A program made the position numbers and the translations under genes. Below, piece after piece: positions 7,586 through 25,358 of a stretch of DNA of 60,512 bases. The stretch covers positions 1-60,512 of the forward strand of contig CAIMEH010000027.1 of assembly GCA_903839975.1 (NCBI GenBank), in the 5' to 3' direction. Every line of letters begins with the position of its first letter. Positions within the stretch are counted from its first letter, which is position 1. The notes below the pieces were generated by a model, which made no database searches, was not told where the DNA came from, and saw only the letters and a program-made list of their open reading frames with translations. Source of the stretch: an uncultured Candidatus Berkelbacteria bacterium. GTDB taxonomy: Bacteria > Patescibacteriota > UBA1384 > 2-12-FULL-50-11.

Positions 7586-7870
7586 ATGGGAGTTGAACAA
7601 GGTGGTCCATCGATGGAAGACATGGGGCTGGATAAAGAAGCTAAGGAAATAAATCCAAAGCCCGTTGAGCTTACGCAAGATCAGAGAGACTTGCTGCTGC
7701 GCGGCGCTGAAGATCCTGATGTACAAAAATTGATCGAAGAGAAAGGGATAGCTGTTGGGGAGGGTAACCAGTTAGTTTCAGTTGACGGCAAAGAGTTCTC
7801 GATCAATACCAGCCCGGAGGATTTTGGCGTAAGGGTCGTTGAAGAAGCAAAAAATCCCAACATTCAGTAA
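7586..7870 (+). CDS. Small acidic hypothetical protein
   Basis: The 94-residue acidic, soluble protein (starts MGVEQGGPSMEDMG) has no membrane segment. A central helix (LTQDQRDLLLRGAEDPDVQKLIEEKGIAV) is followed by a short beta-rich stretch. A strong Shine-Dalgarno sequence, aaggagg, lies 7 nt upstream of ATG 7586, and a good terminator follows at 7893, so it is a well-defined monocistronic gene inside a repeat-rich spacer. No family is recognised. Confidence 0.75.
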   Translation: MGVEQGGPSMEDMGLDKEAKEINPKPVELTQDQRDLLLRGAEDPDVQKLIEEKGIAVGEGNQLVSVDGKEFSINTSPEDFGVRVVEEAKNPNIQ

Positions 7871-15249: not shown

Positions 15250-16638
15250 ATGTTGCTATCGATTTTTGCTGGCAAGAAAGTAGGACTTCTAGGTGCCGGA
15301 ATGGAGAATCTGGCACTTTTACCGTTTCTTAAAGAGGCCGGGTCGGAGATTACTGTTTGTGATAAAGCCGACCAAGAAACTCTGTCCAAAAGAATTAACG
15401 ATTCATCAATTTCCTTAAGATCCGGCGAAAACTATTTGGATAATCTTGGTGATTTTGACACTGTATTCCGAATTCCGGGAATGCCGGTTCGTGAAGTTCA
15501 AGCAAAAATCGCCAAATTAGACAAAAAACCAGAGACTAGCTCAGCCATCGATTTATTTATGGAAGTTTGTCCGTGCCCAATAATCGGCGTGACTGGAACA
15601 AAAGGCAAGGGAACAACAAGTACACTAATTGCCGCTGCGTTGAAGCAGGTAAATAAACACGTTTTTGTCGGTGCTAACATTGCTAGGCCTGTATTTGAAT
15701 TTATCGACGAGCTTACAAAAGATAGTATCGTTATCTTGGAGCTTTCCAGTTTTCAACTAGAAGACATAAAACATAGCCCACATATTGCGGTGATTTTGCC
15801 GGTAACGGAAGACCATCTTCAGCCACTATCAGAAATCAGTCCAAATTATCATTTGAATCTTGGTGAGTATGTTAGTGCCAAAGCCCAATTAACAGCATTT
15901 CAGGGGCCGACTGACTTGTTGGTTTATGCACTCGACTCACCAACAACCAAAGAAATCGCCGACAACAGTAACGCCAGACGAATCGGCGTGGGAAGAAATC
16001 CAAAAGCGGATTTAACTGTTTCGATTGATGGCAAAATTTCGGAAAATGGTCATCAGCTTATGGATTTAGCCAAGACTGGTCTGCGCGGCGAGCACGTATT
16101 TCTTGATGCAGCTTTGGCTGTGGCTATAGGACGTGAATTCGGTGTAACCGAAGAGCAGATGGAAGAAGCTTTCTCACATTACGAAACCTTGCCTCATCGC
16201 CTCCAAACTATCGGCAAATTTAACGACGTTACATATATAGACGACTCTTACGCCACGGCGCCCGATGCGGCTATGGCTGCCATCAAGGCTTTTAATGGGC
16301 CAGTTATTTGGATTGGCGGAGGTTCTAAAAAAGGTGCTTCATTCGATGATTTAGCTAGAATTATTAAAGAAAGTCATATTAAGTTAGTCATTCTACTTGG
16401 TGAAGAAGCTGATAGGCTAAAGCAGACACTAGGAGATCACGGTTTTGATCGACCAATTATTAAAGTTAGCCAACTTGTATCTGCAGTTGAGGAGGCCAGA
16501 AGAAGGGCAGTGAAGGGCGATACGGTTTTGTTATCGCCGGCTTGTGCCAGTAAGGATATGTTTAAAAACGCAGCCGAACGTGGCGAGATTTTCACTAAGG
16601 CCGTTCTCGAGGGGAAAGATGGCGGCATTTCAGTTTAA
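15250..16638 (+). CDS. murD: UDP-N-acetylmuramoyl-alanine--D-glutamate ligase MurD
   Basis: The 462-residue Mur ligase has an N-terminal Rossmann-like UDP-binding domain (KKVGLLGAGMENLALL). The ATP loop is GVTGTKGKGTTST (residues 113-125), and a ligase C-domain has YIDDSYATAPDAAMAAI and WIGGGSKKGASFDDL, characteristic of MurD. It adds D-Glu to UDP-MurNAc-L-Ala in the cytoplasm. Length is normal (about 440-460). It follows mraY by 38 nt in the dcw cluster. Confidence 0.93.
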   Translation: MLLSIFAGKKVGLLGAGMENLALLPFLKEAGSEITVCDKADQETLSKRINDSSISLRSGENYLDNLGDFDTVFRIPGMPVREVQAKIAKLDKKPETSSAIDLFMEVCPCPIIGVTGTKGKGTTSTLIAAALKQVNKHVFVGANIARPVFEFIDELTKDSIVILELSSFQLEDIKHSPHIAVILPVTEDHLQPLSEISPNYHLNLGEYVSAKAQLTAFQGPTDLLVYALDSPTTKEIADNSNARRIGVGRNPKADLTVSIDGKISENGHQLMDLAKTGLRGEHVFLDAALAVAIGREFGVTEEQMEEAFSHYETLPHRLQTIGKFNDVTYIDDSYATAPDAAMAAIKAFNGPVIWIGGGSKKGASFDDLARIIKESHIKLVILLGEEADRLKQTLGDHGFDRPIIKVSQLVSAVEEARRRAVKGDTVLLSPACASKDMFKNAAERGEIFTKAVLEGKDGGISV

Positions 16639-21325: not shown

Positions 21326-22024
21326 ATGCCTTTGGTTTGGCTACTGATAATTGTTGTTGTGGTTTACGGTATCTTCCACTTGCCATTTTTTTCTATAAAA
21401 CAGGTTCAGATAATCGGCAACGCCAACAGTTCTACGGTTACTTCGCTTGATAGTTTGATAGGTACCACAATTTTCTCACACTCGGTAACTACCAATATCG
21501 ATCACATAAAAAACGCCGACTTAACTATCGACACTTTGGATTGTAGAAAGGGGATACCAAGCACTCTTCGCTGTACGGTTACGTATCGCTCACCGTCGAT
21601 CATTTGGAAACGTGGCGACAATCAATTTTTGGTTGATAGCGACGGCTTTGTCTACGCGCCCAAAATCGCTGATAGCACAGTACTAATGGTTGATGACCGA
21701 ACTCAGCTTGATGTAAAAGTTGGCACAACGGTAGCCGATTCGGATATTATAGGCGCCTATCAAAGCATTAAAGACGAACTAACAAAACGTGGATTTACGG
21801 TCACTAATTTATTTGTAGCCGATGCCTTGCAGCAAGTTGGCGCCATCGTTACTGGTAATGACACCCTAAACTGGCATCCAGCTACGCCAATTAATTTTCT
21901 GTTGGTAACCAGCTATCCAATCTCGTCACAGGCCGATATTCTACAGACAACCGTCCAAACAAAAGCCCCACAGATCACCAATCGAGTTGACGTACGTGTG
22001 CCTGGTTACGTATACATTAAGTAA
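21326..22024 (+). CDS. ftsQ: FtsQ/DivIB-like division protein
   Basis: The 232-residue protein (from ATG 21326) has one N-terminal membrane helix (LVWLLIIVVVVYGIF). A POTRA-like segment follows (FFSIKQVQIIGNANSSTV..LDSLIGTTIF) and then the beta domain (YRSPSIIWKRGDNQFLVDSDGFVYAP), the plan of FtsQ. FtsQ recruits FtsL/FtsB. In the same frame the reading continues upstream to 21239 with a basic stretch (NYRPPKKIDWSQYKSL), which looks like the cytoplasmic tail. The only start with a Shine-Dalgarno sequence there is ATT at 21239 (ggagg at 21231). The real protein is probably about 29 residues longer. Confidence 0.85.
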   Translation: MPLVWLLIIVVVVYGIFHLPFFSIKQVQIIGNANSSTVTSLDSLIGTTIFSHSVTTNIDHIKNADLTIDTLDCRKGIPSTLRCTVTYRSPSIIWKRGDNQFLVDSDGFVYAPKIADSTVLMVDDRTQLDVKVGTTVADSDIIGAYQSIKDELTKRGFTVTNLFVADALQQVGAIVTGNDTLNWHPATPINFLLVTSYPISSQADILQTTVQTKAPQITNRVDVRVPGYVYIK

Positions 22025-23664
22025 TGCCAGCTAAGTGGACGGTTGCCGAGCGTCAGAGCGACGATTTACTTGAACATCTCTGTTTATTGCGTGGTTTTAA
22101 TTCGAAGAATTTAGAACCCAATTATGAAACGCAGCTACATGATCCGTATCTTCTGCCGGATATGAAAAAAGCAGTTGATCTGATCAAGCAGGCCAAGAAA
22201 GAGAAGTGGCCAACGATAATATTCGGCGATTACGATGCTGATGGCACGCCGGCTTCAGTGGTCTTGTCGACGATTTGCAAGCGTTTAGAGATTCCGTTTG
22301 AAGTTGTCCTGCCGACACGCTCTGAAGGCTACGGGCTAACCAAAGAGGCGATTGAAAAATTACCAACCAATACCAAACTACTTATTACGGTGGATACTGG
22401 TGTCACCGCAGTTAATGAAATAAAGCTGGCAAAAGAAAAAGACATAAAAGTAATTGTCCTCGACCACCACCTACCCAAGGATAAATTGCCAATCGCCGAT
22501 GCGCTTGTTGATCCGTTCGTTCCCGGCAGTAAGTATCCGTTCAACGGTCTCTGTGGCTGCGCCTTGGCCTACAAGTTGGCCGTAGCGCTAGCCAAAGAAT
22601 TCCCGGCGGAGATAACCGAAGCCTTTCAGAAATGGCTCTTGGATCTAGTGGCAATCTCGACGGTGGCTGATATGATGCCGATCGTCGACGAGAATCGCAC
22701 GCTGGTGCATTTCGGCTTGCAAGTGATGAGCCATAACCGCCGGCCAGGGCTACGGGCTTTATTTGAACAAGCGGCCCTAAAAAGCGACTCGCTCTCATCG
22801 GGAAATTTGGGTTTTGCGATTGGCCCAAGGTTAAACGCCGCTGGCCGAATGGGCGATAACCGCCCGGCCTACGAACTACTATTTGCCGAAGATTATATCG
22901 AGGCGGGGAAGTGGGCGTTAGAAGTTGAAAAAGCCAACTGGAAACGTCAGCAATTAGTCGAAAAAGTTTTGGCAGAAGTCGAAAAAGTAGTTTTTACTCA
23001 AAACAAAGAAGACGACAGATGTTTGGTGGTGGTGGGTGACGACTGGCCAAGTGGCGTGCTCGGCTTAGCCGCCGGCAAACTTACCGGCAAATATTTCCGT
23101 CCATCAATCGTCCTAACTAAAAGAGGTGATTCGCTTTCTGGTAGCGCTAGATCAATTGGCGAGTATTCAATTATAGATGGCCTAACTAGCCAGGAAAGAT
23201 TCCTAGAGAGATTTGGTGGCCACAATCAAGCCGCTGGCGTAAGTTTACTTACCGCAAACTTGCCAAAATTTGTAGATGGCCTTAAGGCGCACGCCGCGAC
23301 GATTCTTTCGCTGGAAGATCTAGTGCCAACGTATAAAGCCGATGCGGTTTTGCGCAGCGACGAGATCGGTCTAAAGACTGCTGAGATGCTAGAAAAATTA
23401 GAACCGTTTGGACTGCAAAATAACCAACCACTTTTTGTCATTGAAGGCGTGAAATTAGGTAAACCAAAACCGATGGGCAAGAACGGCGATCATCTAAAAT
23501 GGTTCGGCAAAAAAGATCAAACTGAACTGGAAATTGTTGGTTTTGGTATGAATAAAAGATTCACCGAAAATCCACTCGAAACGGCTGACTTGCTTGGCAA
23601 TATCGAAGCCAATCGCTGGAACGGCACTACTCGCTTGCAAATGAAGCTTGTGGACTATAGATAA
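22024..23664 (+). CDS. recJ: Single-stranded-DNA exonuclease RecJ
   Basis: The 546-residue DHH-family nuclease has motif I FGDYDADGTPAS (about residues 66-77), motif II TVDTGVTA, the DHH motif VIVLDHHLPKD, motif IV (VAISTVADMMPIVDENR), then a DHHA1 domain with GRMGDNRPAYELL and the GGHNQAAG motif. RecJ degrades 5' ssDNA ends in recombination and mismatch repair. Length is near the family average. It overlaps the ftsQ stop by 1 nt and so ends the dcw transcription unit. Confidence 0.94.
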   Translation: MPAKWTVAERQSDDLLEHLCLLRGFNSKNLEPNYETQLHDPYLLPDMKKAVDLIKQAKKEKWPTIIFGDYDADGTPASVVLSTICKRLEIPFEVVLPTRSEGYGLTKEAIEKLPTNTKLLITVDTGVTAVNEIKLAKEKDIKVIVLDHHLPKDKLPIADALVDPFVPGSKYPFNGLCGCALAYKLAVALAKEFPAEITEAFQKWLLDLVAISTVADMMPIVDENRTLVHFGLQVMSHNRRPGLRALFEQAALKSDSLSSGNLGFAIGPRLNAAGRMGDNRPAYELLFAEDYIEAGKWALEVEKANWKRQQLVEKVLAEVEKVVFTQNKEDDRCLVVVGDDWPSGVLGLAAGKLTGKYFRPSIVLTKRGDSLSGSARSIGEYSIIDGLTSQERFLERFGGHNQAAGVSLLTANLPKFVDGLKAHAATILSLEDLVPTYKADAVLRSDEIGLKTAEMLEKLEPFGLQNNQPLFVIEGVKLGKPKPMGKNGDHLKWFGKKDQTELEIVGFGMNKRFTENPLETADLLGNIEANRWNGTTRLQMKLVDYR

Positions 23665-23667
23665 CGA

Positions 23668-23698
23668 AAAATCCGGCCGTACCTAATGGTCGTGCCGG
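23668..23698 (-). terminator. Rho-independent terminator on the minus strand
   Basis: Read on the minus strand the hairpin starts ctccggc and ends gccgga, and is followed by tttttcg. It lies 4 nt past the recJ stop and ends the minus-strand transcript from 23,975. Confidence 0.75.
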
Positions 23699-23976
23699 AG
23701 TATTATTGTTGAGCAAGTACTACCTGCCTTCCTCGTCTCAACTACTGTTCAGGCCTAGATCGCTTTGTGATCTTACCACACTTCCTAGGGGAGTGAGGCC
23801 AGTTTTGTTTAGCGCACACAGTTTAGTGCGTTCTGGGGCTTTTCCAAGTACAGCGGATCCTACCTAGTAGCAACCACTTTGGGTCACACCCCTCTCGGGG
23901 CTCTCGTTCACGAGAGTTTACTAGTCTTGTTCCGTGTTACCTATGCAGGCAGTGAGAAGTCTTTTTATAATGTGCG
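23668..23976 (-). ncRNA. Candidate structured ncRNA of about 300 nt, divergent from radA
   Basis: A strong minus-strand promoter (23,982-24,010) and a terminator (23,668-23,698) frame about 300 nt with no ORF. By eye it folds into domains. A cuagua/uacuag stem encloses two hairpins (cucucg/cgagag with a ugaa loop, and cccc-gaga-gggg, a GNRA loop). A three-way junction is closed by ggccu/aggcc, with hairpins cacu..agug and gauc..gauc. A gttgag/ctcaac hairpin and the terminator end it. I compared it with RNase P, tmRNA, SRP and 6S RNA signatures and found none. Class unknown. Confidence 0.6.
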
Positions 23977-23981
23977 GGATT

Positions 23982-24010
23982 ATTATGGCATATTTTGTAA
24001 TAAATGTCAA
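23982..24010 (-). promoter_or_regulatory. Sigma70-type promoter for the 300-nt ncRNA
   Basis: On the minus strand TTGACA (plus 24,005-24,010), a 17-nt spacer and CATAAT (plus 23,982-23,987) make a near-consensus promoter. A plus-strand TATAAT at 23,966-23,971 could serve radA, so the two promoters overlap. Confidence 0.75.
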
Positions 24011-24053: not shown

Positions 24054-25358
24054 ATGGCAAAGGCAAAGTCACATTTTGTATGCAATAGTTGCGGGGCTAA
24101 TTTTACCCAGTGGTCGGGCAAGTGTCCGGTTTGCGGTGAGTGGAATACGATCACTGAAGAAGTACCGGAAGAGATTATTGCTGCTAGCCGAAGCGGGGAG
24201 AGCGATGCCAAACCAGTTGAGCTACTTAAAGTTTCTCAGTTGCCAACCCAAAACGCTAAACGACTGAAAACTGGCATGGAGGAGTTTGACCGAATTTTGG
24301 GGAGCGATGATCCCGGCATTGTGGCTGGCTCGATTATTTTAATGGCCGGAAATCCGGGTGTCGGCAAAAGTACGCTCTTGCTCCAAGTAGCCAGCACAAT
24401 CAAAGACGCCTTGTATTTTTCCGCCGAAGAATCTTTGGAGCAGATACGTATGCGAGCCTACCGCTTAGGCATCGAAAAATCCGGTTTTCGGTTAGCCTCG
24501 GAAAGAAATTTAAATAAAATTATCGCCACTATCAAGGCAGAAAAGCCTTCATTTGTGGTAATCGACTCGATTCAAACAGTTTACGACGACACAATTACTG
24601 GCACGCCTGGTTCACTGATTCAAGTTCGTGATAACTGCTGGCGATTACAGCAACTGGCCAAAATTACCGGCGTGGCAATTCTGGTAGTCGGCCACGTTAC
24701 CAAAGAAGGTGTGGTGGCTGGCCCACGAGTAATGGAACACCTAGTTGATGCCGTAATGTATCTGGAGGGCGAGAAACGAACTGGTTTGCGCTTACTTCGC
24801 TGCGACAAAAACCGTTTCGGCTCCACCGAAGAAGTTGGCATCTGGCAGCTAACTAGCAAGGGCTACCTGCCGGTCAAGGACCCGGGTACGCTCTTCGCCC
24901 AGCTCGTAACCGAAAATATCCCCGGCCGGGCCTTAGCGATAGCTATAGAGGGCAGCAGGGCGTTTGTGGTGGAGATCCAGGCGCTGGTGGCCAAGACTTC
25001 GTTCGGTTATCCGAAACGAACGGCCCAGGGAATAGATACAAATCGCTTAGCATTGTTGCTAGCTGTTTTAGAGAACCAGCTCGGACTAAAATTCAGCGAG
25101 TACGATGTTTATATAAATGTCGTCGGTGGATTTACCCTAAAAGATCCAGGAACAGATTTGGCAGTAGCTGCGGCAGTAATCTCCGGCCTAACCAGAAAAC
25201 CATTAGACAATAAATTGATTCTCGTCGGCGAAATCGGCTTGCTCGGTGAGGTTCGCCCAGCATTAGAACACTTGAAGCGCGTTAAAGAAGCTAAAAGATT
25301 AAACTACGAAACCAATCGTGGCATTCGGACACTTCAAGATTTGAAGAAATTGTTCTAA
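24054..25358 (+). CDS. radA: DNA repair protein RadA
   Basis: From ATG 24054 the protein is 434 residues. It has an N-terminal C4 zinc finger (CNSCGANFTQWSGKCPVCGEW), a RecA-like ATPase with Walker A GNPGVGKST, the RadA-specific KNRFG motif (RCDKNRFGSTEE), and a Lon-protease-like C-terminal domain (VGGFTLKDPGTDLAVAAAVISG). RadA is a branch-migration helicase in recombination and natural transformation. The 40 extra residues available upstream are hydrophobic and unrelated, so they are excluded. Confidence 0.95.
   Translation: MAKAKSHFVCNSCGANFTQWSGKCPVCGEWNTITEEVPEEIIAASRSGESDAKPVELLKVSQLPTQNAKRLKTGMEEFDRILGSDDPGIVAGSIILMAGNPGVGKSTLLLQVASTIKDALYFSAEESLEQIRMRAYRLGIEKSGFRLASERNLNKIIATIKAEKPSFVVIDSIQTVYDDTITGTPGSLIQVRDNCWRLQQLAKITGVAILVVGHVTKEGVVAGPRVMEHLVDAVMYLEGEKRTGLRLLRCDKNRFGSTEEVGIWQLTSKGYLPVKDPGTLFAQLVTENIPGRALAIAIEGSRAFVVEIQALVAKTSFGYPKRTAQGIDTNRLALLLAVLENQLGLKFSEYDVYINVVGGFTLKDPGTDLAVAAAVISGLTRKPLDNKLILVGEIGLLGEVRPALEHLKRVKEAKRLNYETNRGIRTLQDLKKLF

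Follow-up and report, generated by a model that had tools for sequence, protein, structure and literature searches.

A putative lineage-specific structured RNA gene with its own promoter and terminator between recJ and radA of a patescibacterial genome

Patescibacteria have very small genomes and few known regulators, and to our knowledge almost no non-coding RNA besides tRNA, rRNA, RNase P RNA and tmRNA has been annotated in them. The window analyzed here, a stretch of 60,512 nucleotides from an uncultured Candidatus Berkelbacteria bacterium, contains a 389-nt spacer between recJ (22024–23664, plus strand, with DHH, DHHA1 and RecJ_OB domains) and radA (24054–25358, plus strand), in a genome whose median spacer length is 65 nt. 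We asked what occupies this spacer. A sequence-only reading had proposed a structured RNA on the minus strand, on which recJ converges and from which radA diverges.

The proposed promoter, TTGACA-17-CATAAT at 24,010–23,982, was borne out: the site (23982–24010, minus strand) matches the consensus at 11 of 12 positions, and a TG before the −10 element makes it an extended −10 promoter, TTGACA-17-(TGC)CATAAT. Given how far from a −10 element transcription usually begins, the RNA should start about 7 nt after it, near 23975. The T-rich hairpin claimed at 23,698–23,668 likewise proved to be an intrinsic terminator (23667–23699, minus strand; pair probabilities 0.92–1.0), in which a GC-rich stem, TCCGGCaCGACC-ATTA-GGTaCGGCCGGA at 23699–23672, is followed by TTTTT; in a longer writing the hairpin is TCCGGCACGACC-ATTA-GGTACGGCCGGA and, with TTTTT, spans 23699–23667. 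The stem has two bulges, which is why it was absent from the strict terminator scan. The distance from promoter to terminator is ∼305 nt, and the two enclose a putative structured non-coding RNA of ∼308 nt (23668–23975, minus strand).

Neither signal is rare by itself. There are two promoter sites of at least 11/12 in the window (1.3 in shuffled windows) and eight terminators of this type (3.2 in shuffled windows). A promoter and a terminator lying 150–500 nt apart occurred once in the real window and not at all in the 20 shuffled ones, which agrees with the claim of a delimited unit of about 300 nt. Genome-wide there are 26 promoter sites of at least 11/12. Of these, 18 are intergenic, mostly lying closely upstream of genes, which indicates that sites as strong as this one are for the most part genuine promoters in the source genome. 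Upstream of the RNase P RNA of the same genome stands TTGACA-17-TGG-TAGTAT, with the same TTGACA-17-TGN layout. The GC content of the RNA is 0.50 as against 0.21 for its 75-nt promoter spacer. Neither strand of the spacer has a noteworthy coding frame; no minus-strand open reading frame exceeds 29 amino acids, and two small plus-strand frames had no Pfam match. Each end of the RNA gene carries a copy of a 15-nt direct repeat (87%; 23692–23706 and 23972–23986), possibly as the trace of an insertion, possibly by chance.

The minimum free energy of the minus strand is −99.2 kcal/mol (z = −3.0 against dinucleotide shuffles). The plus strand of the same stretch folds equally well (z = −2.8). Elsewhere in the window, 201 further stretches of 309 nt were folded, and 12 had an equal or lower energy. 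For these two reasons energy alone is weak evidence, and as a value within the background of the window it was rejected as proof of structure. Base-pair probabilities describe a compact predicted fold. A terminal closing helix (23736–23957, minus strand) would pair 23957–23939 with 23754–23736 through UCUCACUGC..CUG with CAG..GUAGUUGAGA and then UAGGU/GCCUG, at probabilities of 0.72–0.86. In the 5′ domain (23850–23937, minus strand), an ACACGGA/UCCGcUGU stem is predicted to open into a four-way junction, nearly all pairs being at 0.90–0.99; in the junction, CTAGTA/TACTAG closes three hairpins, one of which has a GAGA (GNRA) loop. Smaller hairpins follow in series (23847–23833, 23830–23813, 23799–23775 and 23773–23757, minus strand), the last formed by AGAUC..GAUCU (0.94), and a further hairpin, GGCAGGU-AGU-ACUUGCU (23712–23728, minus strand; 0.73), precedes the terminator. 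The predicted fold thus confirms the at least five hairpins that had been claimed; the GNRA-capped stem also stood, but the junction described as three-way is predicted as four-way.

The loops carry information on the strand. Unpaired A and U on the minus strand stand at 64:21, a ratio matched by 4% of background stretches, and the RNase P RNA of the same genome is likewise A-rich (73:24), although the mark is not universal, the tmRNA of the same genome having 50:48. The A-rich minus-strand loops, like those of RNase P RNA, support the minus-strand orientation, which is better supported than the fold energy.

The size of the RNA recalls RNase P RNA, tmRNA and SRP RNA, all three of which the sequence-only reading had set aside for want of their signatures. 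An Rfam search found no match at the locus at gathering thresholds, nor at E ≤ 10. The true RNase P RNA lies on another contig (G000:C11:12411–13128, 139.4 bits), and the locus has neither a covariance-model match nor a P4 core, so that this identity was rejected. Diverged RNase P RNAs are known in CPR (PMC8172020); in contrast, the source genome has a clear RNase P RNA. That RNA (L003) is 718 nt long, with an insertion of ∼365 nt compared to the relative G002. The present RNA resembles it in size class, in the TTGACA-17-TGN promoter, in A-rich loops and in a GC-rich terminator, but lacks the P4 core and any other conserved sequence of RNase P RNA (RF00010). An identity with tmRNA was rejected in the same way, as ARAGORN finds none at the locus and the true tmRNA is on a different contig (G000:C5:12441–12811, 60 bits).

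For SRP RNA, the covariance model of the S-domain (helix 8) had no match at the locus, in the genome or in 20 relatives. Its protein partners were not found either: none of 13 genomes (the source and 12 related ones) had an SRP54-family GTPase (Ffh/FtsY) above the cut-off, whereas all 14 control genomes were positive. Matches below the threshold were short stretches, mostly over the model start alone, and a motif scan for the family in the reading frames of the source genome and of G002 found none. Because SRP54 proteins were undetected, an SRP RNA is not expected, and with neither a covariance match nor a partner Ffh this identity was rejected as well. These data suggest that the whole SRP pathway may have been lost across the sampled class members. 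The separation from RNase P RNA, tmRNA and SRP RNA thus held in the covariance-model and protein searches.

Several other assignments were tried. A riboswitch or structured leader of radA was rejected, the promoter, terminator and A-rich loops lying on the minus strand, away from radA. No CRISPR-like repeat array was found in the 679 kb of the genome, which speaks against a CRISPR tracrRNA, and a TnpB/IscB guide RNA was rejected because there is no adjacent nuclease, the neighbors being recJ, radA, an NT5C-like protein and a penicillin-binding protein. Among the papers searched, none on orphan RNAs of this patescibacterial class was found. Orphan intergenic sRNA and ncRNA genes have been found in other bacteria by comparative or transcriptomic screens, and the present RNA shares with them its own promoter and terminator, a spacer location and the lack of an open reading frame; compared with typical antisense sRNAs it is larger, more branched and without detectable relatives.

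The surrounding operon suggests how the spacer arose. In four checkable members of the family (G002 among them; all of other genera, with RadA 60–66% identical), the recJ–radA gap is −14 to +2 nt as against 389 nt here. As the two genes abut or overlap in these members, the spacer is lineage-specific, and it was probably gained inside a recJ–radA operon. Other recJ–radA spacers scanned in the class hold protein genes or are short, and the RNA is not present in them. A covariance model built from the single sequence found only the query itself among 55 class genomes (54 others) and no homologue in 379 genomes drawn across the phylum. In control searches of G002 with single-sequence nhmmer, the tmRNA was recovered at 5e-19 and the RNase P RNA at 5e-25, but the best match of the present RNA had E = 2.6; since the controls were recovered and the RNA was not, it is unlike a shared housekeeping RNA. 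No other genomes of the same genus were found in our searches. The sole other DNA match among 60 relatives, 27 nt in G028, lies in a frame unrelated to recJ or radA and was taken as chance. The genome itself has no second copy of the RNA and no long complementarity to it (no shared word longer than 13 nt). Phage and plasmid records gave no convincing match to it, and three exact patterns scanned in viral contigs gave nothing convincing.

Comparable orphan units occur in the same genome on contigs C27, C21 and C2; the set comprises two in the window, two adjacent on C21 and two adjacent on C2, nearly all with promoters of the TTGACA-17-(TGN)NANNAT type and with terminators. The second unit of the window (8310–8040, minus strand) starts from TTGACA-17-(TGC)GATAAT, the sole other 11/12 promoter in the window, and runs through ∼235 nt of spacer that is structured, has no open reading frame and is closed by a GC-rich terminator hairpin; it contains two similar hairpin repeats, CCGAYAGG..CCURUGCGAAAUC, and has no Rfam match. 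The two clusters, L172 (G000:C21, ∼2870–2130) and L153 (G000:C2, ∼7694–7090), both on the minus strand with promoter and terminator, consist of strongly folded units of 80–280 nt without open reading frames. On C21, units C21a and C21b at 2587 and 2346 (198 and 185 nt) are each closed by a long terminal stem, possibly with two shorter units beside them; on C2, two consecutive units start at 7694 and 7352 (282 and 240 nt). None of these four has a match at Rfam gathering thresholds. The orphan units share no long sequence words; the longest that the present RNA has in common with another orphan RNA is 8 nt (with E1), which is close to chance and does not establish them as a single family. What they have in common is their architecture. 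Counting the present RNA, the genome seems to hold at least five such units. We consider it possible, though doubtful, that together they make up a fast-evolving regulatory or structural RNA layer of this patescibacterial lineage, one that RNA libraries miss altogether.

Two further features were seen in the course of this work. The contig end (59440–60512, ∼1 kb) has an extreme folding potential (z ∼ −9), with repeated near-identical inverted segments around CTCACGAA / CGTGAGCAGCGAGGAGTGA. A c-di-GMP-I-GGC riboswitch aptamer scored above the gathering threshold in L162 (G000:C11) at 15414–15489 on the minus strand, which is unexpected in a genome so reduced.

We favor, with a probability of roughly two in three, a stand-alone gene for a structured, trans-acting non-coding RNA of ∼308 nt that is specific to one lineage of this patescibacterial class. 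The reading most in competition with it is that the spacer is non-functional DNA, in which the promoter arose by chance and the hairpin is the recJ terminator. Promoter and energy are individually unremarkable, there is no conservation, and recJ could use the same hairpin from the opposite side; a transcript, given the lack of conservation, may also be decaying or without function. The T-run, however, is on the minus-strand side of the hairpin, the strong promoter-terminator pairing was absent from shuffles, most predicted helices have a probability of at least 0.7, and a spacer of this length stands out against the genome median. We therefore hold this reading to be unlikely. Slightly less likely still is a cis-acting element of radA, in which either the divergent promoter or RNA interferes with radA or the plus-strand copy forms a structured radA leader. 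The −35 hexamer of the RNA promoter and the radA start codon are 44 bp apart, the plus strand folds like the minus strand, and the spacer separates recJ from radA. Yet the minus-strand terminator and A-rich loops indicate a minus-strand RNA, no plus-strand promoter of note precedes the structure, no riboswitch family matches, and interference needs no complex 300-nt fold. As a side effect of the layout, interference with radA through the divergent promoter is a plausible candidate.

Both remaining readings appear highly improbable. That a mobile element left the RNA between the two genes, as its remnant or its cargo (a TnpB guide RNA, a retron RNA or a phage RNA, for instance), would be in keeping with a lineage-specific insertion and with a direct repeat that flanks most of the element. 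However, this repeat may have arisen by chance, the neighborhood has no frame for a transposase, a reverse transcriptase or a nuclease, the genome lacks both a second copy and a CRISPR-like array, and the phage, plasmid and viral-contig searches gave no convincing match. The least probable of all seems to be that the RNA is a divergent 6S-like species binding RNA polymerase. Rfam finds no 6S RNA (RF00013) anywhere in the genome, and the present RNA, which has a strong promoter, shares with 6S RNA a free-standing gene of the abundant type and a terminal helix. In place of the single rod-like hairpin with a central bubble, though, its fold is predicted to have a four-way junction and further hairpins; it is longer (308 nt versus ∼190), has no model match and is absent from sister genera, whereas a 6S RNA would be expected there too. 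Of the other orphan RNAs, C21b at 185 nt would fit the size of 6S RNA better.

Under the favored reading of a stand-alone RNA gene, a strong σ70 extended −10 promoter would drive minus-strand transcription, the transcript would adopt a multibranched fold closed by a helix between its 5′ and 3′ parts, and its own intrinsic terminator would stop transcription just short of the recJ 3′ end. Promoter, terminator, fold orientation and restriction to the lineage are the parts of this model that can be read from the DNA. The gene would occupy a spacer opened within an ancestrally contiguous recJ–radA operon, and with the spacer opened there radA would now need its own start signals. From the compact, A-rich-looped architecture and the lack of an open reading frame, we infer that the product would act as a stable protein-binding or regulatory RNA, probably in trans through bound proteins.

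If this is true, a conserved DNA-repair operon is interrupted by a 308-nt RNA gene, in a genome that carries several more orphan units of a similar kind, and such lineages would acquire novel structured RNAs even as they lose universal ones, that of the SRP among them. If they are transcribed, the orphan units would be direct targets in the search for new RNA functions.
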